Source: Corallococcus terminator | GTDB lineage: Bacteria > Myxococcota > Myxococcia > Myxococcales > Myxococcaceae | Assembly (NCBI RefSeq): GCF_003611635.1 | Contig: NZ_RAVZ01000054.1 | Location: 1-37,278, forward strand | Reading direction: 5' to 3' | DNA: 37,278 nt | In this document: positions 120-15,490 of the stretch, one piece after another | Numbering within the stretch: position 1 is the stretch's first letter | Layout: each line of letters starts with the position of its first letter | The notes under the pieces: generated by a model | What the model saw: the letters and a program-made list of their open reading frames with translations, nothing else | The model's database searches: none | What the model was told of the DNA's origin: nothing | Made by a program: the position numbers and the translations under genes

Positions 120-995
120 TCAGCGCCGCGCGTAGGAGCCGCTGCGCAGCTCGTCGATGATGCCGGGGCCCTTGGGCACCCAGCCCAGCAGCGACTGCGC
201 CCGCTCGGCGGAGAACTTCTGGTCCAGGGCCAGCGCGTCGGCGAAGGCGCCGAACTGCTTGCGCGCCTCCTCCAGCGGCCAGGCGACCGTCTTGCCACCC
301 GCGCCAGCGCCCTCGCTCGCGGCGGCGGCGATGTCCTTCACCTTCAGGGGCGGGCCCTGCACGGCGACCAGCACGGTGCCGGCGGGGGCCTGCTCGACGG
401 CGCGAACATAGAGGTCCGCCAGGTCCTCCACGAACACCACCGGCCAGTGGTTCTCACCCGTGCCCATGAAGCGGGCGGCGCCGCCGTCCTTCACGGACGA
501 GCTGAGCATGGAGGGGATGCCGGCGCCACGCCCGTAGACGATGCCCGGGCGGATGACGATGCCGCGCACGCCCGGCGTGCCCAGGGTGCGCTGCTCCACG
601 GCCGGGCGCCAGGCGACCAGCGCCGCCGCGCTCAGCGGGGTGTCCTCGTTCACGACGGTGCCGCGCGTGTCGCCGTGCACCCAGACGCCGCTGGTGTAGA
701 CGAACGTCTTGTTGGTGCCCTTGAGCGCCTCCAGCACCGCCGCGACAGCGGGCGCGTCCACGGCCTCGCTGTTGGTCGTCGCGGTCCAGACGACCGCGTC
801 CAGGTCCTTCACCAGCGCGGCCAGCCCCGCGGTGTCCGCGAGGTCGCCCGCCACGGCCTGGACGCCACGGCCGGTCAGCTTGTTGCGCGCATCCTCGGAG
901 CGCGCGAGGCCCAGGACCTGGTGGCCCGCCTTCTTGAGCGCATCAACCACCGCGCCGCCGATGTAGCCCGTCGCGCCCGTGACAAGGATCTTCAT
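120..995 (-). CDS. NAD(P)-binding epimerase/reductase-like protein (atypical SDR)
   Basis: A 291-residue Rossmann protein of the NAD-dependent epimerase / NmrA-like extended SDR group. The N-terminus reads MKILVTGATGYIGG, with the dinucleotide-binding GATGYIG at residues 7-13. Further in, FVYTSGVWVHG and VIRPGIVYGRG resemble the SDR active-site and substrate-binding strands, but a clear YxxxK is not seen, so a sugar-epimerase reaction is uncertain. A cytoplasmic NAD(P)H-dependent reductase or sugar-nucleotide enzyme is likely; the substrate is unknown. An in-frame ATG 33 bases upstream exists, but the start at 995 has a good ribosome site (AGAGG) and places the glycine motif at the usual distance. 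It lies 29 bp downstream of the lipoprotein gene on the same strand, so the two may be cotranscribed. Confidence 0.88.
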   Translation of the reverse strand: MKILVTGATGYIGGAVVDALKKAGHQVLGLARSEDARNKLTGRGVQAVAGDLADTAGLAALVKDLDAVVWTATTNSEAVDAPAVAAVLEALKGTNKTFVYTSGVWVHGDTRGTVVNEDTPLSAAALVAWRPAVEQRTLGTPGVRGIVIRPGIVYGRGAGIPSMLSSSVKDGGAARFMGTGENHWPVVFVEDLADLYVRAVEQAPAGTVLVAVQGPPLKVKDIAAAASEGAGAGGKTVAWPLEEARKQFGAFADALALDQKFSAERAQSLLGWVPKGPGIIDELRSGSYARR

Positions 996-1024
996 GTTCC
1001 GCCTCTTCTCAAGTTCAGGTTGCG

Positions 1025-1645
1025 TCATTCGACAGTCACTCCCACCACCTGGCCGTCATGGGCCCAGGCGTAGGAGCGCAACAGCAGTTGCCACACGACC
1101 TCGAGCTCATCCGCGTCGCGAGGTCCATAAAGCATGGGTGTTCCGGAGCGCGGATGCGGCATGCCCCAGCCCTGCTGGAACACCTGCCGCGCCAGGTCCG
1201 GCGGGAACTTCACGTGCAGGCTGCCGTCCTCCGCCGGGTGGATGTGCGCGAACTCCGTGCCCACCTGGAACGCCGCGCGCGGTCCGCGCACGGAGTCCGG
1301 CCGCAGCCAGAACGCGCGAGCCCCCGGCACGGAGATGCCACTGGGCGCCACCGTCACGTCCGGCAGCGCCGCCGCGCGGGTGAAGAGCCGCTCCTGGATG
1401 TCCGTGGGGGACACCTGGCTCAACTGCCGGTGCGCCAGCGGCGTGCCCGGAGGCGCGTCGGTCGTCTCCGGACGCGGCCCCTTGCGCGCCGCCAGCCGGA
1501 AGGAAGGCTCCGGCGCCGTGGAGGAAAGCACGCGAGATACGCCCGGCGCCTCGGCGCGGGGCACTTCGTTCGCGGGAGGGGTGCAGGCCGTCGCGGCCAG
1601 GAGCAGCGCCACGTGCACCCCGAGGACCTTCCTTCGGGAAACCAT
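1025..1645 (-). CDS. Lipoprotein of the luciferase-like / DUF5519 type
   Basis: A 206-residue protein starting with a lipoprotein signal peptide: basic VSRRK, a hydrophobic stretch and a lipobox ending ATAC with the acylated Cys at residue 21. The mature part has a Pro-rich linker and then a domain with FAHIHPAEDGSLHVKF and QQGWGMPHP. I associate these with the so-called luciferase family (DUF5519), a group without a settled biochemical role despite its name. The start at 1645 follows GGGAAG at proper spacing. It is divergent from the LysR regulator at 1721, with only 75 bp between the starts, so it and the downstream SDR gene are candidate targets of that regulator (inference from position). 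Confidence 0.75.
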   Translation of the reverse strand: MVSRRKVLGVHVALLLAATACTPPANEVPRAEAPGVSRVLSSTAPEPSFRLAARKGPRPETTDAPPGTPLAHRQLSQVSPTDIQERLFTRAAALPDVTVAPSGISVPGARAFWLRPDSVRGPRAAFQVGTEFAHIHPAEDGSLHVKFPPDLARQVFQQGWGMPHPRSGTPMLYGPRDADELEVVWQLLLRSYAWAHDGQVVGVTVE

Positions 1646-1691
1646 GACTTCCCTATAGAGCGGGTTGATGACTGGACACTACGCGCAGGAG

Positions 1692-1708
1692 GGAAAAGGA
1701 TTGTTTCC
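1692..1708. promoter_or_regulatory. Small dyad before the LysR gene
   Basis: GGAAA-AGGATTG-TTTCC, 5-bp arms with a 7-base spacer, directly upstream of the ribosome site of the LysR gene and inside the divergent intergenic region. LysR regulators often bind short interrupted dyads near their own start, so this could be an autoregulatory site. Short arms make chance occurrence possible. Confidence 0.25.
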
Positions 1709-1720
1709 TGGAGGTGACCA

Positions 1721-2647
1721 ATGGAGCACGTCGCGCCCTATTTCACGTTCGCCGAAGTGGTGCGGACCGGCAGCTTCACGGTGGCGGCCAAGACGCTGGG
1801 CCTGTCGAAGGCGACGGTGAGCAAGCAGGTGATGCTGCTGGAGAGCACGCTGGGCGTCCGGCTCCTGCACCGCACCACGCGCAAGCTGTCCCCGACGGCG
1901 GAGGGGCGCGCGCTGGCCACGCGGTGTCAGCGGATGACGGAGGAGCTGGAGGCGGCGAAGGCGGAGGTGCTGCTCTTGCGGCGCAAGCCGCGCGGGCGCC
2001 TGCGCGTGAGCCTGCCGATGACGTTCGGGCTGATGCAGGTGGTGCCGGCCATGCCGGAGTTCCTGGAGCGCTACCCGGAGATCGACCTGGACATCCAACT
2101 GGATGACCGCGTGGTGGACCTGGTGGAGCACGGGTTCGACGTCTGCATCCGCATCGCGCAGATGCCGGACTCGTCACTGGTGGCGCGCAAGCTCGCGTCC
2201 AGCCGCCGCGTCATCTGCGCGACGCCCGCGTACCTGAACCGCCACGGCACGCCGCGAAGGCCCGAGGACCTGCGACAGCACCGGTGCGTGCAGTACACCT
2301 ACCTGGCCTCCGGCACCGCCTGGAAGCTGCGCGGGCCCAACGGCGAGGAGTCCCTGGTGGAGACCACCGGCCCCTTCCAGGCCAACAGCAGCCTCGCCCT
2401 GAAGACGGCGGTGCTGGGGCATGCCGGCATCGGGCAGTTCCCGCTGTTCGCGGTGGCGGAGGAGCTCAAGGGCGGCCAACTGGTGGAGGTGCTGGCGGAC
2501 CACGCGCTGCCGGACCTGTCCATCTGGGCCGTGCACGCGCCGGGACGCACCATCACGCCGAAGATCCGCGCGTGGGTGGACTTCCTGGCCCGGCGCTTCG
2601 CGAGCGACACGGGCTGGAGCCACGACGCCGCGGCGAAGCACGGCTGA
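1721..2647 (+). CDS. LysR-family transcriptional regulator
   Basis: A 308-residue LysR-type regulator of normal family length. Residues 1-65 form the winged helix-turn-helix (FAEVVRTGSFTVAAKTLGLSKATVSKQV, then LGVRLLHRTTRKLSPT), followed by a linker helix and a periplasmic-binding-protein-like effector domain of the CrgA/PBP2 kind (LRVSLPMTFG, FDVCIRIAQMPDSSLVARKL). The start has a strong GGAGGTG ribosome site. LysR proteins usually control a divergently transcribed target and themselves, which here would be the lipoprotein/SDR pair. The effector is not predictable. It converges with the thioesterase gene, and a hairpin separates the two stops. Confidence 0.96.
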   Translation: MEHVAPYFTFAEVVRTGSFTVAAKTLGLSKATVSKQVMLLESTLGVRLLHRTTRKLSPTAEGRALATRCQRMTEELEAAKAEVLLLRRKPRGRLRVSLPMTFGLMQVVPAMPEFLERYPEIDLDIQLDDRVVDLVEHGFDVCIRIAQMPDSSLVARKLASSRRVICATPAYLNRHGTPRRPEDLRQHRCVQYTYLASGTAWKLRGPNGEESLVETTGPFQANSSLALKTAVLGHAGIGQFPLFAVAEELKGGQLVEVLADHALPDLSIWAVHAPGRTITPKIRAWVDFLARRFASDTGWSHDAAAKHG

Positions 2648-2654
2648 AGCACAG

Positions 2655-2687
2655 CCGAGGCTCGGACGGAGCTCGGCCGAGCCTCGG
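2655..2687. terminator. Bidirectional terminator hairpin
   Basis: A perfect 11-bp inverted repeat, CCGAGGCTCGG and CCGAGCCTCGG, with an 11-base loop. It sits between the convergent stops of the LysR gene (2647) and the thioesterase gene (2694). There is no T tract, as is common in high-GC bacteria, so termination strength is uncertain. Confidence 0.6.
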
Positions 2688-2693
2688 GAGGCT

Positions 2694-3155
2694 TCAGCCC
2701 TTGCGGGCCGCGCCGTCCTGCCAGTCCACGCGCATGCGGAACTTGCTCAACTGCGCGGAGGCGATCTGCGTGCGCTGGCCGTCCTCCGCGATCTTCCAGG
2801 CCTGGCTCTGGGTGAAGATGAGGTTGCGGCCGCTTCTCAGCACGCTCGCCTCGAAGAGGACCTCCGCGCCCAGGGGGGTGGCCGACATCATCATGCTGTT
2901 GAAGCTGTTGGTGAGCGCGTACTCGTCGGGCCCCAGGAGCGGCAGGGTGGCCAGCATGCTGACCACGTCCAGCATGGAGTAGATGACCCCGCCGTGCAGC
3001 GTGTGGCTCAGGTTGTCGACGGCCTCCGTGACGCGCAGGCGGCACTGGCAGAAGCCGGGGCGCTGCTCGATCAACCGCAGGCCGCAGTAGCGCTGGTATG
3101 CGTGCTCCAAGAGCGCCTGCGAGTGCGCCCGGGCGTGTTCACTCACGTCCTTCAT
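2694..3155 (-). CDS. Hotdog-fold thioesterase (PaaI/acyl-CoA thioesterase type)
   Basis: A 153-residue hotdog protein. The signature is HGGVIYSMLDVVSMLAT, matching the HGGxxxxxxD/E catalytic-helix motif of PaaI-type thioesterases, where Asp/Glu and the Gly-rich turn hydrolyse acyl-CoA or acyl-carrier thioesters. The N-terminal 40 residues form an ordinary helix-strand lead-in. It is last in a minus-strand operon whose first genes encode an amidotransferase, an FAD monooxygenase and an acyl-CoA dehydrogenase; the gap to the dehydrogenase is 11 bp. Its probable job is releasing or proofreading the acyl product of that pathway. The ATG at 3155 follows the dehydrogenase stop closely, consistent with coupled translation. 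Confidence 0.85.
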   Translation of the reverse strand: MKDVSEHARAHSQALLEHAYQRYCGLRLIEQRPGFCQCRLRVTEAVDNLSHTLHGGVIYSMLDVVSMLATLPLLGPDEYALTNSFNSMMMSATPLGAEVLFEASVLRSGRNLIFTQSQAWKIAEDGQRTQIASAQLSKFRMRVDWQDGAARKG

Positions 3156-3166
3156 GGTGTCTCCCG

Positions 3167-4258
3167 TCACAAGGCCCGTCCGATGACTTCCAGCATGACT
3201 TCGCGCGCGCCCCCGCCAATGCCGAGCAGCCGCGCGTCGCGGTAGATGCGCTCCACCAGGGCCGGTTCGACGCAGCCGTGCGCGCCCTGCAACTGGACCG
3301 CGTCGTGCGCGACGCGCTCCAGCACATCCACCGCGGAGTTCTTGGCGATGGCGGCCTGCGCCGGGGACAACCGTCCCTCCGCCTGCCAGCGCACCGCCTG
3401 CTCCACGTACACCCGCACCACGCTCAATTCGGAGTGCCGCTCCGCCAGGCGCTGGCGCAGCACGGACTTGTCCAGCAGCGCCTCGCCGCCCACCCGGCGC
3501 GCGCGGCAGTGCGCCACCGTATCGCGCAGCGCGAGCTCCGCGGACGCCACCGCCATCACCGCCAGGTTCAGCCGCTCCTGTTGCAGGCACTGCTGGAGCA
3601 GGCGCCCCGCCTCGCGTCCGGTGATGAGGAGGCGCGCGGGCGTCGCTTCGAACTTCAGGGCGGCGAGCGGCAGGCACCGCCAGCCCAGGCAGGCCAGCCG
3701 CGTGCTGCTCAGGCCCGGCGCGGAGGCCTCGACCAGGAACAGCCCCAGGGCCCCCTCGTGGACCGCGCCCACCAGCAGCAGGTCCGCGCGGCCCCCGTTG
3801 CAGATGAAGCGCTTCTCCCCGGTGAGCCGGTACCCGCCCCCGTGCGACTCCGCCCGGCACTCGAAGGCGCGCAGGTCGGAGCCCGCCTGGGGCTCCGTCA
3901 ACGCCAGGACGATGCCCTGGTCGCCCTTGAGCACCGCCGGCACCACCCGGGCGGCCACCTCCGCGCTGCTGCCCTGCACCGCCTTCAGGCTGACGAAGTG
4001 CGAGGCGAGCCCCATGGTGATGCCCTGGGAGCCCCCCAGGGTCAGCTCCTCCACCAGCACCGCGAGCGCCCGGGGGTCGTCGGGGAGCTGCTCCGGGGAC
4101 TTCCCCAGCGACAGCAGGCCCGCCCTGCCCGCCTGCCGGTAGAGCTCCAGCGGGTACGCGCCCTCGCGCTCCCAGACGTCCACGTGAGGCCGCACGTGGT
4201 CGTTGACGAAGGCGCGCACCTGCTCCCGGAAGGCTTCTGTCATCGCGTCCGTGCCCAC
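3167..4258 (-). CDS. Acyl-CoA dehydrogenase family protein
   Basis: About 363 residues, similar in length to short-chain acyl-CoA dehydrogenases. The N-terminal helical domain is followed by LALTEPQAGSDLRAF (the flavin/substrate signature) and GEKRFICNG, and the C-terminal helical domain ends with QLQGAHGCVEPALVERIYRDARLLGIGGGAREVM. In classical short- and medium-chain enzymes the last segment carries the catalytic Glu of the EGT motif; here that position is Gly. The base must come from elsewhere, as in isovaleryl- or long-chain-type enzymes, or the enzyme is not a simple dehydrogenase. GTG at 4258 immediately follows the upstream stop; ATG at 4243 is the alternative start. Middle gene of the operon; it probably installs a double bond in an acyl thioester. 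Confidence 0.88.
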   Translation of the reverse strand: MGTDAMTEAFREQVRAFVNDHVRPHVDVWEREGAYPLELYRQAGRAGLLSLGKSPEQLPDDPRALAVLVEELTLGGSQGITMGLASHFVSLKAVQGSSAEVAARVVPAVLKGDQGIVLALTEPQAGSDLRAFECRAESHGGGYRLTGEKRFICNGGRADLLLVGAVHEGALGLFLVEASAPGLSSTRLACLGWRCLPLAALKFEATPARLLITGREAGRLLQQCLQQERLNLAVMAVASAELALRDTVAHCRARRVGGEALLDKSVLRQRLAERHSELSVVRVYVEQAVRWQAEGRLSPAQAAIAKNSAVDVLERVAHDAVQLQGAHGCVEPALVERIYRDARLLGIGGGAREVMLEVIGRAL

Positions 4259-5383: not shown

Positions 5384-7332
5384 GCCGCCTCCTCGCGGGC
5401 GCTCCACAGGGGCTGGGAGTTGGAGGAGCTCAGCGAGTAGCGGTTCTGCAACAGGCAGAGGCTGGTCAGCTCCATCAGCATCGGATCCAACAGGCCCTGC
5501 TCATGGACGCTCAGCTTGGGCAGGCGGTGGAGCAGGTCGCGCACGCGGGCCGGATCGAAGAAGGGCAGCGAGTCCAGCTCCGAACCGTTCAGCACGTCGC
5601 GCACCAACTGGTAGAGCCGGCCCTTCTGCTGGAGGGTGGCGGGGGGCGCGCGGAAGTAGTGCTTCTTGCGCTTGTAGAGCGCGTCCGGCAGGTAGGACTT
5701 CATCGCCTCGCGGAACACGTACTTCTCCGTGGAGCCGCGCACCTTCATCCAGACGGGCATCTGGCAGGCCAGCTCCACCACGTGGTGGTCCAGCAGGGGG
5801 ACGCGGCCCTCGATGCTGTTGGCCATCTCCATACGGTCGCCCAGCGTGGTGAGCACGAAGTTGGGCAGGTAGGACTTGGCCCACAGGTACATGGACTTGT
5901 GGACCGGGTCGCGGCCCTCCAGGTTGCGGTGGTCCAGGCGGTCGTAGAACTGGCGGTAGGGGTCCGTGCCCTCGAAGCGGTCGCGGAAGTCCTTGCGGTA
6001 GAGGGCCTCCAGCGCCTTGAACCAACCGGCCTGGTTGTCCAGCCAGGACACGCCGTGGCTCAACTGCTCCACCATCCAGTGGATGTCCTGGGGCATGTCC
6101 GGCCGCTGGTAGCCGTTCTCGCTCTCCTGGATGCGCTGGCGAAGCTGGGTGACGAGCTTCGGGTCCTGGCGCTCCGGGTTGTACAGGAGCATGTCGCGGC
6201 GGAAGTGCGGGTAGCCGGCGAAGACCTCGTCGGCGCCCTCGCCGGTGAGGACGACCTTCATCCCGGCGTCGCGCACCGTGCGGCTCAGGATGTACTTGGC
6301 CACGCCGTGCGCGTTGAAGAACGGCGTCTCGTTGTGCCAGAGGGCCTGCTCGAAGTTGTCCGCGAGGTCGTCCTGGGACACGGCCACGGTGTGGAAGCGC
6401 GCGCCGTTGTGTTCGGCGGCCAGCCGGGCGAAGCGGTTCTCGTCGTAGTCGTCCATGTCCGTGAAGGACAGGTTGAACGCGTCCAGCGGCTGCCCGGACA
6501 ACTGCGTGGCCACGCCCAGCATGGCGGAGGAATCAATGCCGCCGCTCAGGTAGACGCCCATGGGCACGTCGGCGCGCAGGCGCAGGCGCACGGACTTCTC
6601 CACCGCGGCGCGCACGGCTTCAATCATGCCCTGCTCGTCGGACGGATCCGGCGCGTCCTGGCGGGCGAACTCCATGTCCCAGTAGCGGCCATGGTGCAGG
6701 CCACCGCTGTCCGCCATCACCCAGCAGCCCGGCTGCACGCTGCGCACGCCCTTGAAGAGGGTGTGGTCGCGCAGATAGAAGGCGCGGCTCGCGTAGGCGT
6801 CCTCGTCCCACTCCGCGGGGACCCCGGCGGCCAGCAGGGCCTTGATCTCCGACGCGAAGTACCAGGCGCCCCGGTGCTGGGCGTAGAACATCGGCTTGAT
6901 GCCCATGCGGTCGCGCACGGCCAGCATCAGGCGACGCTGACGGTCGAACAGCAGGATGGCGAACTCGCCGCGAAGCTGCTTGAGGCCCGCGAGGCCGGAG
7001 CGGCGGTACAGGTGCAGGGCGATCTCACTGTCGGAGTCCGTCTTGAACTCGCAGCCGAGCGCCTGGAGCTCGCGGCGGATCCGCTCGTGGTCGTAGAGCT
7101 CGCCGTTGACCACCAGCGCCAGATCGCCCTGATCCGCGACGATGGGCTGCTTGCCGTTGTCCAGACCGATGATGCTCAGGCGGACGTGCCCCAGCACGGC
7201 GCGGCCGGCAGGGTCATGCCACAGGCTGCGCTCATCGGGACCGCGGTGGTGGATGGTGGTCAGCGCGGTGATGAGGGCCCGCTCGTCAAAGGACGAGGGA
7301 GTACGCTGGTAGACGCCAATGAATCCGCACAT
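5380..7332 (-). CDS. asnB: Asparagine synthetase B-like amidotransferase (glutamine-hydrolysing)
   Basis: A 650-residue class II glutamine amidotransferase. Cys2 directly after Met is the glutaminase nucleophile, and the glutaminase pocket is seen in RLSIIG and NGELYDHERIR. The synthetase half has the ATP-pyrophosphatase loop SGGIDSS at 263-269 and GEGADEVFAGY. It should transfer ammonia from glutamine to an adenylated carboxylate. In primary metabolism that is aspartate to asparagine, but AsnB paralogues are common in natural-product operons, where they amidate other acids. It is the first gene of a coupled operon (4-base overlap with the FAD monooxygenase), which argues for a specialised substrate. 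The start at 7332 is fixed by Cys2. Confidence 0.93.
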   Translation of the reverse strand: MCGFIGVYQRTPSSFDERALITALTTIHHRGPDERSLWHDPAGRAVLGHVRLSIIGLDNGKQPIVADQGDLALVVNGELYDHERIRRELQALGCEFKTDSDSEIALHLYRRSGLAGLKQLRGEFAILLFDRQRRLMLAVRDRMGIKPMFYAQHRGAWYFASEIKALLAAGVPAEWDEDAYASRAFYLRDHTLFKGVRSVQPGCWVMADSGGLHHGRYWDMEFARQDAPDPSDEQGMIEAVRAAVEKSVRLRLRADVPMGVYLSGGIDSSAMLGVATQLSGQPLDAFNLSFTDMDDYDENRFARLAAEHNGARFHTVAVSQDDLADNFEQALWHNETPFFNAHGVAKYILSRTVRDAGMKVVLTGEGADEVFAGYPHFRRDMLLYNPERQDPKLVTQLRQRIQESENGYQRPDMPQDIHWMVEQLSHGVSWLDNQAGWFKALEALYRKDFRDRFEGTDPYRQFYDRLDHRNLEGRDPVHKSMYLWAKSYLPNFVLTTLGDRMEMANSIEGRVPLLDHHVVELACQMPVWMKVRGSTEKYVFREAMKSYLPDALYKRKKHYFRAPPATLQQKGRLYQLVRDVLNGSELDSLPFFDPARVRDLLHRLPKLSVHEQGLLDPMLMELTSLCLLQNRYSLSSSNSQPLWSAREEAA

Positions 7333-7633
7333 AGCAGGCTGCTTCCTTCGAGATAAAACGGGTCCGTCAGCGCCAGCGACGTGAGCACCCCCAAGGTACC
7401 CACGACACGGCGAAGCACATGGCGGTCCGTCCTGGAGACACGTCCAGACCGGCCACGGTTTTCTGGCAATGGATTGGAGCCCGCTGGAAGGGAGAACGCG
7501 TGCGCTACCGAGCGCCCCTCCAGAGGTGACTCGTCAGGCGGTCGTCGATTGCATCCCCATACCGCTACAATGTTTTCCCATCACTCCCCCTCTGGAACCA
7601 CGACCCATGACGGGTCACCCCGGCGGACTGTCT

Positions 7634-7654
7634 CATCGCAACCGGGTTGCGATG
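7634..7654. promoter_or_regulatory. 21-bp palindrome, probable operator
   Basis: CATCGCAACC-G-GGTTGCGATG: perfect 10-bp arms around one central base. This size and symmetry fit a binding site for a dimeric repressor (TetR-, GntR- or Rrf2-like); no such gene is adjacent, so the protein is unknown. It lies about 300 bp upstream of the amidotransferase start and 540 bp upstream of the Mpo1-like gene. Confidence 0.5.
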
Positions 7655-7771
7655 GACATAACACCACAAAAGCCAGAGCGATAGCGGAAATCTCGTATCA
7701 AGCGACTTAATCCGCTTAATTCAATGTAACTGGACTTGCTCCGCGCTACTCTGGAGAGAGCATTGGAAAGC

Positions 7772-7904
7772 GCAGATTACGCCTGCCTTTGGGGCTCCAT
7801 CGACAGCAGATTTCGCCTGCCTGTCGTGCAGCGGCACCGGTGTATGCATTCACGGCAATAGCTGCCTGGAACCCGCAAACTTTGCCGGCAGAGTTCGCCT
7901 GCCT
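7772..7904. repeat. Three dispersed 17-bp direct repeats (GCAG-N7-CTGCCT)
   Basis: GCAGATTACGCCTGCCT at 7772-7788, GCAGATTTCGCCTGCCT at 7806-7822 and GCAGAGTTCGCCTGCCT at 7888-7904. They differ only within the central bases, and each has GCAG/CTGC ends in inverted orientation. A weaker relative may lie near 7855 (GCAATAGCTGCCT). Start-to-start spacings of 34 and 82 bp do not fit CRISPR. The third copy sits inside an 8-bp stem, TTTGCCGG at 7881-7888 and CCGGCAAA at 7908-7915. Clustered regulator sites or RNA structure are both possible. Confidence 0.55.
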
Positions 7905-8141
7905 TTTCCGGCAAATCCTCTCACGCCCTTCACGCGAAGTTCCTCGCAATGTCACACCATCCCCCAGGGATTGCCTGTCTCCACCAGCGCGTGTCGGCAT
8001 CGAATCCAATCCCATGCACCCAAAAGCACGCGCCCATCGCGCGGCAGCCACCGTTCCAGGGGCTGCCACCAGCGAGGTCTTGCGGAATCCGGGCCATGAC
8101 GGCGGGTGCGGCCCCACAGGTACGCCCGGCGGGGTCGATAT

Positions 8142-8157
8142 TCTCCGGGCCCGGAGA
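8142..8157. promoter_or_regulatory. 16-bp perfect palindrome upstream of the Mpo1-like gene
   Basis: TCTCCGGGCCCGGAGA, with no spacer, ends 36 bases before the start codon of the Mpo1-like gene. It could be an operator or a leader hairpin. GC-rich perfect palindromes this long are uncommon by chance, but I recognise no specific regulator. Confidence 0.35.
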
Positions 8158-8193
8158 TGTCCCCCTGGCGCCAATCGCCTAAATTCCGCGCCC

Positions 8194-8709
8194 ATGAGCT
8201 TCGCCGACAAACTGCGCCCCTGGCTGCCCCTGCACGAGAACGGCGTCAGCCGCGCCGTGCACTTCGTGGGCGCCTACCTCTTCACCTTCTCCCTGCTCGT
8301 GCCCCTCTCCTGGGTGCGGCTCCCGGTTCCCGGCGTGTCCCTGACGGCCGCGCACCTGCTGGTGCTCGCGGTGGTCCTCTATGCCGTGATGCTGGAGTGG
8401 ACCGCCGGCCTGCTCATGGCCCTTCCGCTACTGCCCACGCTCATGGCCGCCGAGGCGGTGGCACGCCTTGCGACCGGGACCGCCGTGGGTGTGGCGGTGG
8501 GCGTGATGGTGATGCGGTTCGCGCTGGTGGTGGGCGCGCACGTCGTCTTCGAGAAGAAGACCCACGGGCTGTCCCTGGGCGGCCCGCTACTCTTCTTCAT
8601 CGAGCCCGTGTACCTCATCACCCTGGTGCTCTTCTCGCTGGGCTTCAAGCGCGACCTGTACGCCCGGGCGACGTCGCAAGGCACCGGCCCCGCCTCCGCC
8701 GCTCGCTGA
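8194..8709 (+). CDS. Mpo1-like (DUF962) membrane protein
   Basis: A 171-residue integral membrane protein with about four or five hydrophobic segments. The N-terminus has WLPLHENGVSRAVHFVGAYLF, corresponding to the conserved H...N..R..H..G of the Mpo1/DUF962 family. Later it has VVGAHVVFEKKTHG and LLFFIEPVYLI, matching the family's (Q)xxGH..FE and P..F..E segments. Yeast Mpo1 is an Fe(II)-dependent dioxygenase that shortens 2-hydroxy fatty acids by alpha-oxidation; bacterial relatives are mostly untested. The ATG at 8194 gives a proper N-terminus. It converges with the WD40 gene. Neighbouring genes do not reveal its pathway. Confidence 0.82.
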   Translation: MSFADKLRPWLPLHENGVSRAVHFVGAYLFTFSLLVPLSWVRLPVPGVSLTAAHLLVLAVVLYAVMLEWTAGLLMALPLLPTLMAAEAVARLATGTAVGVAVGVMVMRFALVVGAHVVFEKKTHGLSLGGPLLFFIEPVYLITLVLFSLGFKRDLYARATSQGTGPASAAR

Positions 8710-8727
8710 GCAGTTCCCGGCACCGAA

Positions 8728-8759
8728 GGCCACGTGCACGGGCCGTTGATGCCGTGGCC
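8728..8759. terminator. Possible bidirectional terminator
   Basis: GGCCACG at 8728-8734 and CGTGGCC at 8753-8759 form a 7-bp stem with a long loop, in the 51-bp gap between the convergent stops of the Mpo1-like and WD40 genes. There is no T tract. The location is the main support. Confidence 0.35.
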
Positions 8760-8760
8760 G

Positions 8761-10875
8761 TCAGCGGGACTGGATGAGGAACCGCGCGGAGTCCCAGACC
8801 AGCCCATGGCGTCGCAGGAGGTCTTCAATCCCTGTCCCCGCCGGGGGTGGATGGGCCAGGGTCTGGAACCCGACCAGGTGCACGGTCCGGTCGGAGGCCG
8901 CGGAGGCCAGGAGCGCGCCGTCGGGTGAGAAGGCCAGCGCCGACAGGAAGCCCTGCTGTCCTCCGAGCCGCCCCATCAGCTCCCCGGAGGTCAGGCCCCA
9001 GACCTTCACGTCCGCGTCCAGGCCCCCGGAGGCCAGGAACCGCCCGTCAGGCGACAGGGCCAGGGACAGGACCCCGACCGTGCCCTCATCCATCGCCATC
9101 AACCGCTGGCCGGTCACCGCGTTCCAGAGGCGGATGGGCTGCCGCATGCCCGCCGTCACCAACTGGTCACCGGACGGCGTGAAGGCCACCGCCCGGACCC
9201 GCTCCCCGGCTTCGAGCCGCAGCAACGGCTGAAGCGTGTCCACGTTCCAGGTCCTCACGGTCATGTCCGCTCCGCCCGACGCGAGCCGATGCCCCGTCCC
9301 ATCGAAGGCCAGGGCCCAGAGCTTCCCGGTGTGCCCCTGGAGCCGCCCCACGGGCGTGCCCTCGGGCAGGGACCAGAGGTGGATGTCCGGGTCTCCCGCC
9401 GCGGCGAGCCTCTTCCCATCCGGGCTGAAGGCCACCGCGCGCACGGAGCCCTTCACACCCGACAGCTCCAACAGCGGTCGGCCCGAGCCGGCTTCCAACA
9501 CCCGCACCCGCCCCTTCAACGTGCCCACCGCGAGGAGCTTCCGGTCCGGACTCACGGCGAGCGACACCGTGGCCTCCGTCCCCTCCGCGCTCGAAACGAC
9601 GCGGTTCCAATCCGCGACGCGCCACCGTCGCAGCCCGTCCTCCGCGCCGGAGATCAACTCCTGCTCCTGGGAGAACGCGAGCGCCTCCACCCAGGCCCCA
9701 TGTCCGCGAAGCAGCGTGTCCGGCGGAGCACCCGGCCGGGACCAGACCTTCAGCACGCCATCCATCCCGCCGGAAGCGAAGGTGCGCCCGTCGGGAGACA
9801 ACGCCACGCACATCACGAAGCCCCGGTGTGCATCCAGCCGCTCCACCAGGGCTCCGCCACGCGCCTCGACGAGCTGGACGCGCCCATCCCATCCCGCCTG
9901 GATGACGAGCGTGAACGCGGGGTCGATGGCGGCGGCGGACACATCCCCCGCGTTGCGCACGACATCGACGAGCTGCCCTGACCTCGCATCCCAGAAGCGC
10001 AGGGCGTGGTCGGCCGCGGCGGTCATGATCCGCTGACCGTCCAAGGAGAAGGCCCCTGACTCCACCTTCTCCTCGTGACCCATGAGGCGGTGCGCTTCCT
10101 TGCGCGTCTCCAGGTCCCAGACCCGCGCGCTCTTGTCCATGCTAGTCGAGAGCAGCCGCTGTCCATCCGCGGAGAAGGCCACCGCGATCACATGCTCGTC
10201 ATGTTCGAAGCGCAGGTGCTCCGTGCCGGTGGCCAGGCTCCAGACACGGACCGTCTTGTCCAACCCTCCGGAAGCCAACCGGTCACCCGTGGGTGAGAAC
10301 GCCAGCCCTCGCACGACGTCCGCGTGTCCCTGCAACAGCGCCACCTGGCGCCCCTGCCGCCAATCCCAGACACGAATCTCCCCGGGCCTGCCGGCGGACG
10401 CCAGCCATTGACCGTCCGGCGTGAAGGCCACGGCGTGCACCTCCGCCGTGTGCCCCTTGAGCTCCGCTAGCAGCTCCCCGCGCTCCACTCCCCAGAGCCG
10501 GACGATGGAGTCGTAGCCCGCGGAGGCCAGCACCCGCCCATCCGGAGAGAACGCGACGGCGAGGACGGAGCCTTCGAACGGCTTCGTCCAGCGCAACGTG
10601 GAGGCTCGGACCGACGCCTGTCCCTGCCCCCACCGCGCCGCCAGCGAGTCGTGGGAGGCCCGAGCGATGGCGAAGGAGGCCGCCGCCACGCCCCACTGCC
10701 GGGACTCGACGGCTGCCTCGCCCTTCGCCAGGTAGATGCGCGCGCGCAGCTCCCTCGCCCCCGTGTCGTTCCGGTCCTCCGCGCGGGTGGGCTCGTGCGC
10801 CGCGCATGAGACGATGAGCAGCGCCAGGACACCCCACCACGGCTTCAGGCGCTTCAAGGCAGAACGCGAAGGCAT
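8761..10875 (-). CDS. WD40-repeat lipoprotein with 14 repeats
   Basis: A 704-residue protein. It starts MPSRSALKRLKPWW, then has a hydrophobic stretch and a lipobox LIVSC with the acylated Cys at 24. After a short helical, TPR-like region (about 45-95) come 14 consecutive WD40 repeats, recognisable by VxAVAFSPDGxxLASGGxDxxVRxW, enough for two seven-bladed propellers. Repeats 6, 8 and 9 are degenerate. WD40 propellers are protein-binding scaffolds, here anchored to a membrane and facing the periplasm or surface. Stand-alone WD40 lipoproteins and WD40-kinase fusions are frequent in myxobacteria. An upstream in-frame ATG at 11010 would spoil the signal peptide, so 10875 is chosen. No partner is evident in the neighbourhood. 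Confidence 0.9.
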   Translation of the reverse strand: MPSRSALKRLKPWWGVLALLIVSCAAHEPTRAEDRNDTGARELRARIYLAKGEAAVESRQWGVAAASFAIARASHDSLAARWGQGQASVRASTLRWTKPFEGSVLAVAFSPDGRVLASAGYDSIVRLWGVERGELLAELKGHTAEVHAVAFTPDGQWLASAGRPGEIRVWDWRQGRQVALLQGHADVVRGLAFSPTGDRLASGGLDKTVRVWSLATGTEHLRFEHDEHVIAVAFSADGQRLLSTSMDKSARVWDLETRKEAHRLMGHEEKVESGAFSLDGQRIMTAAADHALRFWDARSGQLVDVVRNAGDVSAAAIDPAFTLVIQAGWDGRVQLVEARGGALVERLDAHRGFVMCVALSPDGRTFASGGMDGVLKVWSRPGAPPDTLLRGHGAWVEALAFSQEQELISGAEDGLRRWRVADWNRVVSSAEGTEATVSLAVSPDRKLLAVGTLKGRVRVLEAGSGRPLLELSGVKGSVRAVAFSPDGKRLAAAGDPDIHLWSLPEGTPVGRLQGHTGKLWALAFDGTGHRLASGGADMTVRTWNVDTLQPLLRLEAGERVRAVAFTPSGDQLVTAGMRQPIRLWNAVTGQRLMAMDEGTVGVLSLALSPDGRFLASGGLDADVKVWGLTSGELMGRLGGQQGFLSALAFSPDGALLASAASDRTVHLVGFQTLAHPPPAGTGIEDLLRRHGLVWDSARFLIQSR

Positions 10876-11038
10876 GGACGCGGAGCCTACGCGGGCGGGG
10901 CTTCTTCCCTGAACGGTGGACGACCGGACGAGCAGCCGGGGGAGGCGATGCGAAGGCCGGCGCGGCTCCCCACCTTGTCGCTCCGCGCCGCGGCCACAGG
11001 TTTGGGCCATGGCGCGCTCAGCCCGTCAGGAGGAACCC

Positions 11039-11215: not shown

Positions 11216-11542
11216 ATGGCAGCCGCCCCCCGGAAGACGTCCACCGCGTCCCATTCACCGGAGCGGCGCCGCTGGTCCCAGGCGGTGACGGAGCACAGCG
11301 ACGCGATGACGCTGGAGGAGCGGATCTTCACACGCTCCCCGAAGGAGATCGCACGCTCCGTGAAACGCTCCGCCGAACGCAGCACCCGGAGGAAGGCCTC
11401 TCCGTTCCAGTCCGCCATGTCGATGCTCACGTTCTACGGCAACCGCGCGGGGAAGAACCTCCCGGCCTCCCGCAGACGCGCGCTCCAGGAGGCCAAGGAG
11501 GAGCTGCGCAAGCTCTACCACCGGCCTTCCAAGCCCCTGTAG
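11216..11542 (+). CDS. DUF3175-type small basic protein
   Basis: A 108-residue basic protein. RRWSQAVTEHSDAMTLEERIFT, then KEIARSVKRSAERSTRRKASPFQSAMSMLTFYGNRAGKNL and a C-terminal KEELRKLYHR, match my memory of the DUF3175 family, whose members are about 90-110 residues long and lack a known function. The Lys/Arg-rich helices and conserved SxxRRKxxPxxSAMSMLTFYxNRAGKNL suggest a nucleic-acid or acidic-partner contact (inference). It has a good GGGAGGT ribosome site. It is followed by a terminator hairpin that overlaps its stop codon, so the downstream RiPP-like cluster should have its own promoter. Confidence 0.8.
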   Translation: MAAAPRKTSTASHSPERRRWSQAVTEHSDAMTLEERIFTRSPKEIARSVKRSAERSTRRKASPFQSAMSMLTFYGNRAGKNLPASRRRALQEAKEELRKLYHRPSKPL

Positions 11543-11665: not shown

Positions 11666-12463
11666 ATGACCAAGATCAAATCGCCGACTGGATTCGTTTC
11701 AACGCCCAAGACCGCGCCGAAGAGCGCCACGACCGAGGGCAAGCCGGCTGGCGCGCCCGAGCTGAAGAAGGCCCCCAAGGCCCCTGGCGACTCCTTCGAG
11801 CAGACGAAGACCGCCCCGAAGTCCGGCAAGGAGGGCCTCAAGATCAATGACCGCATCATCATGAAGGTCATCGCGGACGAGCCCACCACCCCCGCCAAGG
11901 GCGAGAACACGGGCCTCAAGGTCAATGACCGCATCATCATGAAGGTCATCGCGGACGAGCCCACGACCCCTGTCACGGGCGGCGGAACCCCGGGCCTCAT
12001 CGACGACCACATCGTGAAGATCGTCGCGGACGAGCCTACCAACCCCGTCACGGGCGGCGGTGACATCGGCTTCAAGGGCAACATTGGCGGCAAGGGCGAC
12101 TTCAAGGACGACATCGGCTTCAAGGGCAACATCGGCGGCAAGGGCGACTTCAAGGACATCGGCTTCCCGCACGGGCCCATCAAGGTCATCGCGGATGAGC
12201 CCACCACCCCCGTCAAGGGCGATGGGGACTCTGGCCTGAAGATCGACGACCACATCGTGAAGGTCATCGCGGACGAGCCCACCAACCCCATCAGCGGGGG
12301 CAACGGCGGCAGCATCAAGGACATCGATGACGGCGTCATCGTGAAGATCATCTCCGACGACCCCATCCGTGGGCCCTCGGAGCCTTCGTTCAAGCCGCCG
12401 AAGCTCGACATCAAGCCGCTGGACACCCACGTGCTGAAGGTCCGCATGGACAGCCCGGTCTGA
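11666..12463 (+). CDS. Repetitive multi-core precursor of a candidate graspetide-like RiPP
   Basis: A 265-residue hydrophilic protein without signal peptide or Cys. Residues 1-58 are a Lys/Pro/Thr-rich leader-like region. Seven core-like repeats follow, centred on (I/V)-(M/V)-K-(V/I)-(I/V)-A-D-E-P-T-(T/N)-P. They lie at 59-76, 85-102, 111-127, 168-182, 192-208, 218-237 (ISDDPIRGP) and 249-265 (KVRMDSPV); the last two are degenerate. Gly-rich linkers separate them, and a tandem 16-residue repeat lies at 133-164. Each core keeps Lys/Thr/Ser next to Asp/Glu, the residues ATP-grasp ligases join by amide or ester bonds. The ATP-grasp gene starts 28 bp downstream. The start has AAAGGA as ribosome site. 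I do not recognise the core as the microviridin TxKxPSD or plesiocin TTxxxxEE type. Alternative: a repetitive structural protein. Confidence 0.75.
   Translation: MTKIKSPTGFVSTPKTAPKSATTEGKPAGAPELKKAPKAPGDSFEQTKTAPKSGKEGLKINDRIIMKVIADEPTTPAKGENTGLKVNDRIIMKVIADEPTTPVTGGGTPGLIDDHIVKIVADEPTNPVTGGGDIGFKGNIGGKGDFKDDIGFKGNIGGKGDFKDIGFPHGPIKVIADEPTTPVKGDGDSGLKIDDHIVKVIADEPTNPISGGNGGSIKDIDDGVIVKIISDDPIRGPSEPSFKPPKLDIKPLDTHVLKVRMDSPV
11840..12460 (+). repeat. Seven core-like coding repeats in the precursor
   Basis: Repeat positions in DNA: 11840-11893, 11918-11971, 11996-12046, 12167-12211, 12239-12289, 12317-12376 and 12410-12460. Repeats 1 and 2 are nearly identical in protein (DRIIMKVIADEPTTP). Repeats 3 and 5 share a DDHIVK...ADEPTNP version, and 4 is short. 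The alternation of ADEPTTP and ADEPTNP forms suggests duplication followed by selection on the same residues. Confidence 0.85.
12062..12157 (+). repeat. Tandem 48-bp repeat encoding DIGFKGNIGGKGDFKD twice
   Basis: Two units (12062-12109 and 12110-12157) inside the precursor, between core repeats 3 and 4, encode the same 16-residue segment twice; a partial third start (DIGF or IGF) follows. They lack the ADEP motif, so they may be a spacer or a second core type. Confidence 0.9.
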
Positions 12464-12491
12464 GCAGCCTCCCGGCGGAGTCACGGTCCCC

Positions 12492-13430
12492 ATGGCGTCC
12501 ATGAAGAAGGTCGTGATCATCGGCTCGCGGACGGACGACGCCACCCGCTTCGTCGCTGAAGCGGTGGAGCGCCGACGCGCGCGAGCCATCGTCGTGGAAA
12601 CCGACCGGGTGCCCGACTCCGCCACGCTGAGCTGGGAGGACGGCGACGTGCTCTGGGACGGTGAATGTCTCAGCGACCTGCGCTCGTTCTACATCAAGGC
12701 CATCCGGCTCTCGCTCCCGGTCCCCGAGGCCGAAGCCCTGTCCGCGCGGAACTTCCCGCGCTGGCAGGAGCAGTACCTCGCGGAGCGGGAGCGGCAGTCG
12801 CTGCTGCACTCCGTCCTGCGCTCGCTCAACAAGCGCGGGTGCTCCTTCATCAACCCGATGGAGTCGGTGGAGCTGCACTACCTGAAGCTGCACCAGTTGG
12901 CCCTGCTGCGACGGCACAAGATTCCCGTGCCCGCGAGCCTGGGCACCGCTTCGGCGGACGCGGTGCGGGAGTTCGTCGCCCGGCACAAGGCCGTCATCTA
13001 CAAGCCGCTGGGCGGCGGCGCGCTCGTGCAGAAGATTGGCGAAGCGGACCTCACCGAGGAGCGGATGGCGCTGCTCGCCAACTGCCCGGTCCTCTTCCAG
13101 CAGCAGATCCAGGGCGACGAGTTCCGCGCCTACGTGCTCGACGGCGAGCCCGTGGCCGCCTTCCGCATCCCCACCGAGGGTGTGGTCGACGCGCGGCAGA
13201 ACCTGGACAAGGTGAAGCCCGGCCGCCTGCCCAAGGAAGCCTGGGACATGTGCATCCGAGGCGCGAAGGCGCTGGGCATGGTCTTCACCGCGGTGGACCT
13301 GCGCCGTACCGCCGAGGGCGACTTCGTGGCCCTTGAATTCAACCCCACTCCCGCCATCTCCTTCTTCGATGATCCGCGCGACGGAAAAGTCATCACCCGA
13401 CTCGCCAGCTACCTCGTCGCCAAGGCCTGA
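12492..13430 (+). CDS. RimK-like ATP-grasp ligase, candidate RiPP macrocyclase
   Basis: A 312-residue ATP-grasp protein. The N-terminal pre-ATP-grasp domain (about 1-125) carries FYIKAIRLSLPVP and NFPRWQEQYLAERERQ. A hinge with YLKLHQLALLRRHKIPVPASLGT follows. The nucleotide site includes YKPLGGGALVQK (Lys171, Gly-rich loop 174-176), LFQQQIQGDEFRAYVLDG and the metal-binding ALEFNPTPAISFF with Glu282 and Asn284. This layout matches the MvdC/MvdD/PsnB kind of enzyme, which phosphorylates Asp/Glu side chains and joins them to Lys, Ser or Thr. Adjacency to a repetitive D/E/K/T-rich precursor supports that role. Simple amino-acid ligation (RimK-like) remains possible. ATG at 12492 is chosen; ATG at 12501 is an alternative. 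Confidence 0.88.
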   Translation: MASMKKVVIIGSRTDDATRFVAEAVERRRARAIVVETDRVPDSATLSWEDGDVLWDGECLSDLRSFYIKAIRLSLPVPEAEALSARNFPRWQEQYLAERERQSLLHSVLRSLNKRGCSFINPMESVELHYLKLHQLALLRRHKIPVPASLGTASADAVREFVARHKAVIYKPLGGGALVQKIGEADLTEERMALLANCPVLFQQQIQGDEFRAYVLDGEPVAAFRIPTEGVVDARQNLDKVKPGRLPKEAWDMCIRGAKALGMVFTAVDLRRTAEGDFVALEFNPTPAISFFDDPRDGKVITRLASYLVAKA

Positions 13431-14133
13431 GCGCCCCAGCGGCTTCTTCGTCGCGAACTTCGCCGACAGCGTCTTCGGCCACGTTCGCGCGAAGCCGCCG
13501 AGCGCGTTCCCCCCTTCCGCGTCCGGGTGGTCCCCGCTCGCGAACGCATCCCCGAAGCTGCACGACGCCATCCGCCACGAGTTCGTCTCCGGTGGACGGG
13601 TGCCGCACGTCTGCCTCCAGCGCGTGCTCCTGCCCGAGCGCGCCGAGGCCATGCGCCTGGCGCTCCGCGACGCCCGCTTCCAGCGCCACCACCACGGGCC
13701 CTATCCGCTGCACATCGCGCCCCTGGCGCAGCAGGCCCCCGGCGTCCTGTCGGACTTCTGCGCGTGGCTCGCGAGCGAGGACGGCGCGGACTTCCACGCG
13801 GCGCTCGTGGGCTGGCCCCAGAAGCTGGAGACCCGTCAGGTCCAGGTGTCGCGCATGGACGTGGGCGAGCAGTTCCCGGAGCACCGGGACACGGACGAGG
13901 AAGGGGTCGCGGTCGTCTACAACTTCACCCGTCCCTGGCAGGAGTCGTTCGGCGGGGTGCTCGCGTTCCCGCACCCGGACGGCGACCGGGACCTGATGCG
14001 CGTCCCGCCCATCTTCAACTCGGTGTTCATCTTCCGCGCCGTGAACGCCCCGCACCGCGTGACGGAGTGGCTGCCCGCGGCCCAGGGCCACCAGCGCTAC
14101 TCCATCACCGCCTTCATGCTCGCGAAGCGGTAG
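13369..14133 (+). CDS. 2-oxoglutarate/Fe(II)-dependent oxygenase (prolyl-4-hydroxylase-like)
   Basis: About 254 residues. The double-stranded beta-helix core shows the metal triad H172-R-D174 in FPEHRDTDEEG and H229 in NAPHRV. R243 in HQRYSITAF should bind 2-oxoglutarate, and FGGVLAF lies between. Enzymes of this fold hydroxylate peptide Pro, Lys, Asp or Asn residues. As third gene after the precursor and ATP-grasp genes it is the natural candidate to oxidise the modified cores. The start is uncertain: the frame is open back into the ATP-grasp gene, and ATG at 13369 (62-bp overlap) and TTG at 13333 both lack a clear ribosome site. Recognisable homology begins near PSGFFVANF, codons after the upstream stop, so translational coupling or an unusual start is possible. 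Confidence 0.85.
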   Translation: MIRATEKSSPDSPATSSPRPERPSGFFVANFADSVFGHVRAKPPSAFPPSASGWSPLANASPKLHDAIRHEFVSGGRVPHVCLQRVLLPERAEAMRLALRDARFQRHHHGPYPLHIAPLAQQAPGVLSDFCAWLASEDGADFHAALVGWPQKLETRQVQVSRMDVGEQFPEHRDTDEEGVAVVYNFTRPWQESFGGVLAFPHPDGDRDLMRVPPIFNSVFIFRAVNAPHRVTEWLPAAQGHQRYSITAFMLAKR

Positions 14134-14236
14134 CTTGAAGGGCCAGTCAGGCAGGCGGCCCCTCGCGGTCCCGCCCCCGTGAGGGATTGTCTCCCGTCGT
14201 GCGCGTTGAGAGTCAGTAACGGAGAGGAGACGCGAC

Positions 14237-15490
14237 ATGACGACGATAGAGCCGACGGGACAGGCCCCTTCCTCGACGCGGGTGACGGAGCCGCTGTCCC
14301 CGAAGGGGCTCGCCGGCGTGACAGCCGTCCTGCGCGGCCCGGTGGACCCGGGCGGACTGCCCGGCCTCGTCGCCCTGGTGGCGCGGGGGGATCAGGTCCA
14401 CGTGGACGCGTTGGGTGTGCAGGACGTCCAGTCCCGCGTGCCCATGCGGCGCGACACCCTCTTCCGCATCGCGTCCATGGGCAAGCCCGTCACGGCCGTG
14501 GCCACGTTGATGCTCGTGGAGGATGGAACGCTCCAGTTGGACACCCCTGTGGACCGGTGGCTGCCGGAGCTGGCGAACCGCCGCGTCCTGCGCGCGCTCG
14601 ACAGCCCGCTGGAGGACACGGTGCCGGCGCGCCGGCCCATCACGGTGCGCGACCTGCTCACGCTGCGGCTGGGAACTGGCGCGGTGATGGCGCCTCCGGA
14701 CACCTACCCCATCCAGAAGGCGATGCAGGCGGCGCGGGTGGCTCCGGGCTTCGACCCCATTCCCTACACCGCCGACGAATTCATGCGCCGGCTGGGAGCG
14801 CTGCCGCTCGTCCATCAACCGGGAGAACGGTGGATGTATCACACCGGTTTCGAGGTCCTGGGCGTGCTGGTCGCGCGCGCTTCTGGAAGGGGGTTCGATG
14901 ACTTCCTCGCCGAACGCCTCTTCCAGCCGCTGGGCATGAACGACACCGCGTTCAGCGTGCCGCCGGAGAAGCGGGGACGGCTGGCGACGACCTACCAGCG
15001 AGCCCCTGGCACCGGAGCGCTCACGGTCTGGCACGAGCCCCGGACGGCCCCGGGCTCGCAGCCTGCCGCCTTCCTCGCGGGCGGGGGACAGGGCGGCGGA
15101 CTGGTGTCCACCGCCGACGACTTCCTCACCTTCTGCCGGATGCTGTTGAACCAGGGCCGCCACGGTGCGACGCGCATCCTGTCCCCCGAGAGCATCCGGG
15201 AGATGACGACGGATCAGATCCCCGCCGAGCAGAAGGCCGCCTCGCCCTTCTTCCCGGGCTTCTGGGACACGTCCGGCTGGGGCTTCGGCGGAAGCGTCAC
15301 GACGCGGCCGGATGGCATCTCCCCCACGGCGGGTCGCTATGGCTGGGCCGGCGGCTTCGGCACCACGTTCTTCATCGACCCCGTGCAGGACCTGGTGGCC
15401 ATCCTGCTGACCCAGCGGATCCTGTCGGGCCCCGACGACGAAGCCTTCGCCGTGGCGTTCTCGAAGGCGGCGTACGCGGCGCTCGGTTAG
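14237..15490 (+). CDS. Serine hydrolase of the beta-lactamase/class C family
   Basis: A 417-residue protein with the penicillin-binding fold of EstB/class C-type esterases. The catalytic S80-M-G-K83 lies in LFRIASMGKPVTAVATL, the Tyr motif in RWMYHTGFEVLG, and a Gly-rich C-terminal strand in YGWAGGFGTTFF replaces KTG. Such proteins are usually esterases or peptidases and seldom true beta-lactamases. No signal peptide is visible, so it is probably cytoplasmic. It has a strong GGAGAGGAG ribosome site. It follows the RiPP-like cluster by 103 bp on the same strand; a role in processing that product would be speculation. Its stop overlaps the stop of the convergent SRPBCC gene. Confidence 0.92.
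   Translation: MTTIEPTGQAPSSTRVTEPLSPKGLAGVTAVLRGPVDPGGLPGLVALVARGDQVHVDALGVQDVQSRVPMRRDTLFRIASMGKPVTAVATLMLVEDGTLQLDTPVDRWLPELANRRVLRALDSPLEDTVPARRPITVRDLLTLRLGTGAVMAPPDTYPIQKAMQAARVAPGFDPIPYTADEFMRRLGALPLVHQPGERWMYHTGFEVLGVLVARASGRGFDDFLAERLFQPLGMNDTAFSVPPEKRGRLATTYQRAPGTGALTVWHEPRTAPGSQPAAFLAGGGQGGGLVSTADDFLTFCRMLLNQGRHGATRILSPESIREMTTDQIPAEQKAASPFFPGFWDTSGWGFGGSVTTRPDGISPTAGRYGWAGGFGTTFFIDPVQDLVAILLTQRILSGPDDEAFAVAFSKAAYAALG

Follow-up and report, generated by a model that had tools for sequence, protein, structure and literature searches.

A corallotide-type graspetide cluster in Corallococcus terminator and related loci beyond the genus

The window analyzed here, a stretch of 37,278 nucleotides from Corallococcus terminator (contig NZ_RAVZ01000054.1), carries four consecutive genes on one strand, corA-corB-corC-corD (window 11666-15490, plus strand), coding for a multi-core precursor peptide, an ATP-grasp synthetase, a 2-oxoglutarate (2OG)-Fe(II) oxygenase, and a serine beta-lactamase-fold protein. 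We conclude with high confidence that this is a corallotide-type cluster of Corallococcus, i.e., a member of graspetide group 15, with core units that would be modified as in its orthologue from Corallococcus exercitus. The corallotide cluster corABCD of the latter was described by Carter et al. (ACS Chem Biol, 14 March 2026; PMC13097080, cited here from its main text), according to whom five KxxxD motifs each acquire a Lys-Asp isopeptide, from Lys(i) to Asp(i+4), before the Lys is hydroxylated at C5.

This place in the genome had been flagged in an original prediction as a candidate new type of graspetide-like cluster for a ribosomally synthesized and posttranslationally modified peptide (RiPP). 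The observation behind it is confirmed and its mechanism is largely right; its novelty fell away, and we dropped a novel graspetide class as a candidate, with the cluster matching the published group 15 (PMC13097080). The new content of the present analysis is comparative. The flagged stretch ended short of corD, which is counted as the fourth gene in the published cluster. A text search of the main text of another paper (PMC8939145) found no mention of Corallococcus, Myxococc, group 15, ADEPT, or 2OG.

Identity of the locus

The window holds a CorB-like synthetase, a precursor with repeated KxxxD, a PF13640 oxygenase, and a PF00144 neighbor, the combination that characterizes group 15, and it shares gene order, protein families, and the KxxxD multi-core precursor with the corallotide cluster. 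Compared to C. exercitus AB043A (L046), its CorB is 84.6% and its CorC 78% identical, and the CorA of that strain (sequence identical to that of L008) includes the published tryptic fragment NPDDGVIVKIVADDPLR (PMC13097080). The orthology of genes and motif, the intact catalytic residues, and the conservation across genera stand at the level of sequence comparison; by analogy, the window's own peptide would be modified in the same way as C. exercitus CorA. The 265-residue precursor, the gap of 28 bp between the end of the corA stop (12463) and the corB ATG (12492), and the KPLGGG and LEFNPTP motifs of CorB were all re-read as originally given.

Several points weigh against this identification. 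The best NCBIfam match of CorB is TIGR04187, the family to which CorB is assigned in PMC13097080, but its score of 85.8 bits lies far under the curated cut-off of 350. The units of the window are of the ADEPT type, and there are seven candidates versus five modified motifs in the published CorA; by the pattern used here the CorA of L046 also has seven units, and hence either the strain or the count in the paper differs. Finally, compared with C. exercitus AB043A, the window's leader has Leu-to-Pro changes and is shorter by about 24 residues, and its clade is without much of the stretch reported to be helical in CorA of the published cluster (PMC13097080). With a leader eroded to this extent, recognition by the modifying enzymes may differ.

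Features of the cor locus in the window
Feature	Coordinates	Strand	Remarks
corA, multi-core precursor, 265 aa	11666..12463	+	residues 1-66 are a shortened leader rich in Pro; seven KxxxD(E/D/S)P units follow
core unit 1, KVIADEP	11864..11884	+	
core unit 2, KVIADEP	11942..11962	+	
core unit 3, KIVADEP	12017..12037	+	
core unit 4, KVIADEP	12182..12202	+	
core unit 5, KVIADEP	12260..12280	+	
core unit 6, KIISDDP	12344..12364	+	
C-terminal unit 7, KVRMDSP, candidate modification site	12437..12457	+	similar C-terminal unit in many relatives
corB, ATP-grasp graspetide synthetase, 312 aa	12492..13430	+	signature GDEFR / VVDAR / NPTP
corC, 2OG-Fe(II) oxygenase (PF13640), 254 aa	13369..14133	+	from ATG 13369; complete HxD...H...R
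corD, serine beta-lactamase-fold protein (PF00144), 417 aa	14237..15490	+	PF00144 match 3.5e-71

The precursor and its core units

Units were sought with the pattern K...D[DEQSVT]P, which fixes K, D, and P and restricts the residue after Asp. About seven ADEPT repeats had been predicted; the number of units stands at seven, of which exactly five are ADEPT (KVIADEP four times, KIVADEP once), the remaining two being KIISDDP and KVRMDSP. The precursor is multi-core, as foreseen; 2000 residue shuffles of CorA yield a mean of 0.12 units and a maximum of 2 versus the seven real ones. The starts of adjacent units are spaced 75 to 165 bp apart. At the DNA level, a 37-nt repeat with 9 copies at at least 60% identity spans the units, two of the copies being other than KxxxDxP units. 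The gene also contains a direct repeat of 48 nt with 98% identity (DIGFKGNIGGKGDFKD; window 12062-12157), which is without a KxxxDxP unit.

The same design recurs in the relatives: in each of the 22 precursors examined, the KxxxD count is above that of all 2000 shuffles. Across their 138 units, the residue after Lys is V or I in 134, and that before Asp is M, A, or S in every one, both positions being free in the pattern. After Asp, within what the pattern allows, D occurs 81 times, E 37, S 16, T 2, V 1, and Q 1.

The synthetase and its signature

The best PDB match of CorB in a sequence search is 7drm (E=1.3e-41), labelled in the search output simply as an ATP-grasp protein, which we take to be PsnB, the plesiocin synthetase. 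The likeness lies in the ATP-grasp synthetase family and the multi-core precursor. The canonical plesiocin core, however, is TTxxxxEE with hairpin esters, whereas the repeated unit of the window is KxxxDxP, bearing out the earlier impression of a core unlike that of microviridin or plesiocin. The synthetases differ too: 7drm reads GDDVR (DxR) and IDFR (DFR), where the window CorB has ExR and, in the place where DFR would be expected for plesiocin or microviridin, DAR.

These sites were compared between 20 CorC-linked CorB proteins, counting that of the window, and 50 out of 54 further ATP-grasp homologues belonging to the same family. E-x-R, D-A-R, and N-P-T-P are present in all 20 CorC-linked proteins. 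Among the 50 others, E-x-R never occurs (47 have D, 2 N, and 1 S), nor does N-P-T-P, and D-A-R is missing from all 41 that are readable there, 9 of the 50 being gapped at the site in the pairwise alignment. Of the readable ones, 37 have DFR, one has it shifted by a single column, and the other three read DYR, SYR, and DAG. We infer that the ExR/DAR/NPTP substitutions may set the Lys-Asp specificity, and the comparison points to residues that may distinguish Lys-Asp staplers from the remaining graspetide synthetases. The DFR motif is called critical for graspetide synthetases in the discussion of MirB in PMC13097080; in most of the main text of that paper, we found no discussion of the three substitutions, and a text search within PMC12291112 found no mention of DFR or DxR.

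Two other readings of the synthetase and its product have to be weighed. Going by Pfam, where GSH-S_ATP and RimK are its only matches above cut-off, CorB could be a ligase like RimK or glutathione synthetase that is unrelated to the repeats. In the PDB profile search, however, 7drm scores 3.1e-57 and RimK-type ligases 6.4e-06 or weaker, and a KxxxD precursor adjoins the synthetase in 22 of the 22 CorC-linked loci examined, making such a ligase scarcely credible. With CorB closest to graspetide synthetases in the NCBIfam and PDB searches, a non-RiPP ligase of the RimK/LysX type was rejected.

The second reading concerns the bond. Links from either Lys or Thr to Asp or Glu had been envisaged, and Thr is indeed frequent after Pro in the window's clade (ADEPTTP, ADEPTNP), as might be expected if Thr/Ser esters to Asp/Glu were formed in the manner of plesiocin. 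Yet Thr follows Pro in merely 64 of the 138 units, the others having I, V, L, A, S, or further residues, and all 20 oxygenase-linked synthetases carry DAR, as opposed to the prevalent DFR, gapped sites aside, of related ones. Further, the link solved in the C. exercitus orthologue is Lys-Asp (PMC13097080). Lys and Asp thus hold as the partners; Glu is not needed, being present after Asp in 37 of 138 units, and Thr as the donor was rejected on the motif variation together with the solved orthologue. We regard esters as very improbable and retain the Lys-Asp isopeptide.

In a tree of CorB, the g19 rows L013 and L016 fall within the Corallococcus rows and L017 outside them, the forks there being open; the long branches of L052 and L118 are unsafe, and transfer between genera is not settled by the tree. 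Among plasmid-borne relatives, five records had ATP-grasp-like matches, none of the five covering 80% of the query.

The oxygenase and the proposed chemistry

For corC, a start at TTG 13333 is probably wrong, and ATG 13369 is likelier because protein similarity in many relatives begins there; this start results in a 62-nt overlap with corB. CorC matches PF13640 (3.2e-09, scored on the longer reading from TTG). The complete HxD...H...R set noted earlier corresponds to H172-x-D174, H229, and R243, numbered from ATG 13369, and is the same in all 12 rows compared, one from the window and 11 from relatives. A structure model with a mean predicted local distance difference test (pLDDT) score of 77.8, residues 1-45 being below 50, best matches OGFOD1 and Tpa1 (2.7e-11 downward), followed by PolD and PHD2-type prolyl hydroxylases. 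CorC has, then, the complete iron/2OG residue set, on what is predicted to be a prolyl-hydroxylase-like fold. Oxygenases are also found in the cluster of a group 18 graspetide, the SmaO/SmaX pair; these act at Asp of a linear peptide, whereas CorC acts on the stapled Lys (PMC13097080).

In C. exercitus, CorB is activated by CorC, which copurifies with it as a CorB-CorC complex (PMC13097080). We propose that the window's CorB, probably complexed with CorC, would use ATP to activate the Asp of each KxxxD unit, which would then be linked to the side chain of the Lys lying four residues before it; each such i,i+4 isopeptide would cost 18 Da. CorC would thereupon hydroxylate C5 of the stapled Lys with O2, Fe(II), and 2-oxoglutarate, adding 16 Da each. 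The order of steps, staple before hydroxylation, is carried over from the C. exercitus orthologue, for which the predicted cyclization and subsequent oxidation, -18 and then +16 Da, have been measured (PMC13097080). Seven units could thus give up to seven 5-hydroxy-isopeptide staples in the full-length product, a net change of -14 Da. The 5-hydroxy-isopeptide is very recent chemistry, and the window contributes an orthologue whose units and leader differ; collagen-like properties were remarked on by the corallotide authors (PMC13097080).

Reach of the family

Group 15 is stated to be confined to Corallococcus (PMC13097080). A CorC profile run against 195 genomes of the phylum matched 24, namely, 14 Corallococcus genomes with full-length CorC, the decayed copy of G030, a partial match in G066, and eight genomes outside the genus. 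The last are G069, G072, and G075 (g19), G002 (g3), G009 and G010 (g4), and G182 and G185, which belong to two other families of the phylum. In all eight, CorC is adjoined by a synthetase of the CorB type and by a precursor with KxxxD units, and the six loci that lie within the family but in other genera preserve the order corA-corB-corC. As judged from gene content, the system extends past Corallococcus, beyond its published scope.

The match in G066 was left out as marginal and partial (6.6e-9, positions 169-251). G027 (L019/L041), a Myxococcaceae metagenome-assembled genome (MAG), was counted as CorC-intact; its CorB is without about 45 residues of the ATP-grasp part, with the frame open, which is either real or an assembly fault. 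Scanning contigs for two peptide patterns of CorC confirmed 12 loci; the scan missed those of g19 and g3 and so is not exhaustive. Seven of the 12 are named Corallococcus, with CorC 75-94% identical over its full length or 73% over part of it, the others being MAGs; the nearest named relative by CorC is C. praedator, at 94% identity.

The leader and the recruitment of the enzymes

The comparison sharpens two points left by the 2026 paper, what recruits CorBC and the relevance of CorD. As to the former, the published CorA has a helical N-terminal domain, which is enough to bind CorB, CorC, and CorD (PMC13097080); the helix is a trait of that characterized member and no part of the group's definition. 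In the window and in L003, L004, and L019, the first unit begins at residue 64-67, versus 89-102 in ten other Corallococcus precursors, and the leaders of this clade have 6-10 prolines in 63-66 residues versus 5-6 in 88-101 in the others; the C. exercitus stretch SSLKTALKT, for instance, is STPKTAPKS in the window. An AlphaFold2 model of CorA built from three rows has no predicted helix, at a mean pLDDT of 29 (very low confidence). In L020 and L021 (L049, L050), merely 21 and 11 residues, counted from mechanically picked starts, stand ahead of the first KxxxD unit.

One tentative thought, which we consider rather doubtful, is that CorBC is a motif-guided protein stapler and not a leader-guided RiPP enzyme, with KxxxD(D/E)P possibly near-sufficient for recognition. 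If so, evolution could have dropped the unit into unrelated carriers: these may be the near-leaderless repeats with 11 and 21 residues, the plesiocin-like repeats of L052, and the 470-residue protein of L118 described below, and the eroded leader of the window's clade may be a step on that road.

CorD: pathway member or bystander

The corallotide paper assigns no function to CorD (PMC13097080). Its distribution suggests that it is probably a bystander to corABC. It is present (E<=1e-100) in 16 of 16 Corallococcus genomes, of which 14 have full-length CorC; the other two are G029, with no CorC match, and G030 (Corallococcus sp. AS-1-6; L124 8426-9001), in which a deletion begins inside corA and reaches into corC, with CorD retained. 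In G029, 39 bases (L123 8488-8526) stand opposite the 2539-base corABC block of G018 (L038 7432-9970); CorD and the flanking sequence align (about 87-90%), and exactly the corABC block is missing. Outside the genus, with the threshold unchanged, CorD at 52-57% identity was found in 15 of 80 other family genomes, in a survey that scored at most 18 candidates per genome; G002 alone among these has cor genes, and its CorD copy lies far from them. A second survey with all candidates scored (E<=1e-40) found CorD beside the cor genes in none of the eight cor-bearing loci outside Corallococcus.

CorD might instead belong to the pathway as a working fourth component, for instance by aiding hydroxylation. 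It bound CorA, and in Escherichia coli without CorD a -18 Da product was left beside the -2 Da product (PMC13097080); moreover, among the 11 Corallococcus loci compared that have a full CorC, 10 have CorD no more than 150 bases away from it. Against this, the authors' own account gives no CorD effect in vitro (PMC13097080), and in Corallococcus sicarius (L045 8762-14117) CorD is about 5.4 kb downstream of CorC, not adjoining it. Taken with the persistence of CorD where corABC is gone or decayed and its separation from the cor genes in other genera, these points make a pathway role unlikely, and we favor the bystander.

Fused and hybrid loci

In G185 (L118; reverse strand, oriented 5832-9151), a single frame of 587 codons runs through CorB and CorC as an apparent fusion, which fits a CorBC complex; the assembly is a draft in about 140 contigs, and a sequencing frameshift could mimic a fusion. 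The fusion reads EWR, DAR, and NPTP. Its neighbor is a protein of 470 residues (from the chosen start), with two KIRADDP units between its N-terminal part and a long C-terminal part, for which a Pfam search gave no match. A literature search for a synthetase-oxygenase fusion brought up unrelated titles among those listed, which is no evidence of absence. Next in L118 is a Ser/Thr-kinase-like open reading frame (judged by eye).

A further arrangement is seen in L052 (MAG Co_bin.297; DNA the same as G182), where a precursor cut by the contig end (3-389) has eight TT..[VL]GEEDGG and two VIKVRADDP units. Downstream of it (507-3101) are two different ATP-grasp synthetases, the first with DLR and DFR and the second with EWR, DAR, and NPAP, and then a CorC homologue. 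From its motifs, this precursor seems to combine, within a single chain, plesiocin-like cores with corallotide-like ones. The apparent fusion and the mixed precursor are test objects toward doubly modified peptides.

Neighboring genes

Upstream of corA in the window are a WD40-like repeat gene (8761-11010, minus strand; judged by eye) and a DUF3175 gene (11216-11542). In the compared loci, a strongly repetitive stretch with many cross-matches lies near the cor region (L038, about 3000-4007; L123, 2433-5071).

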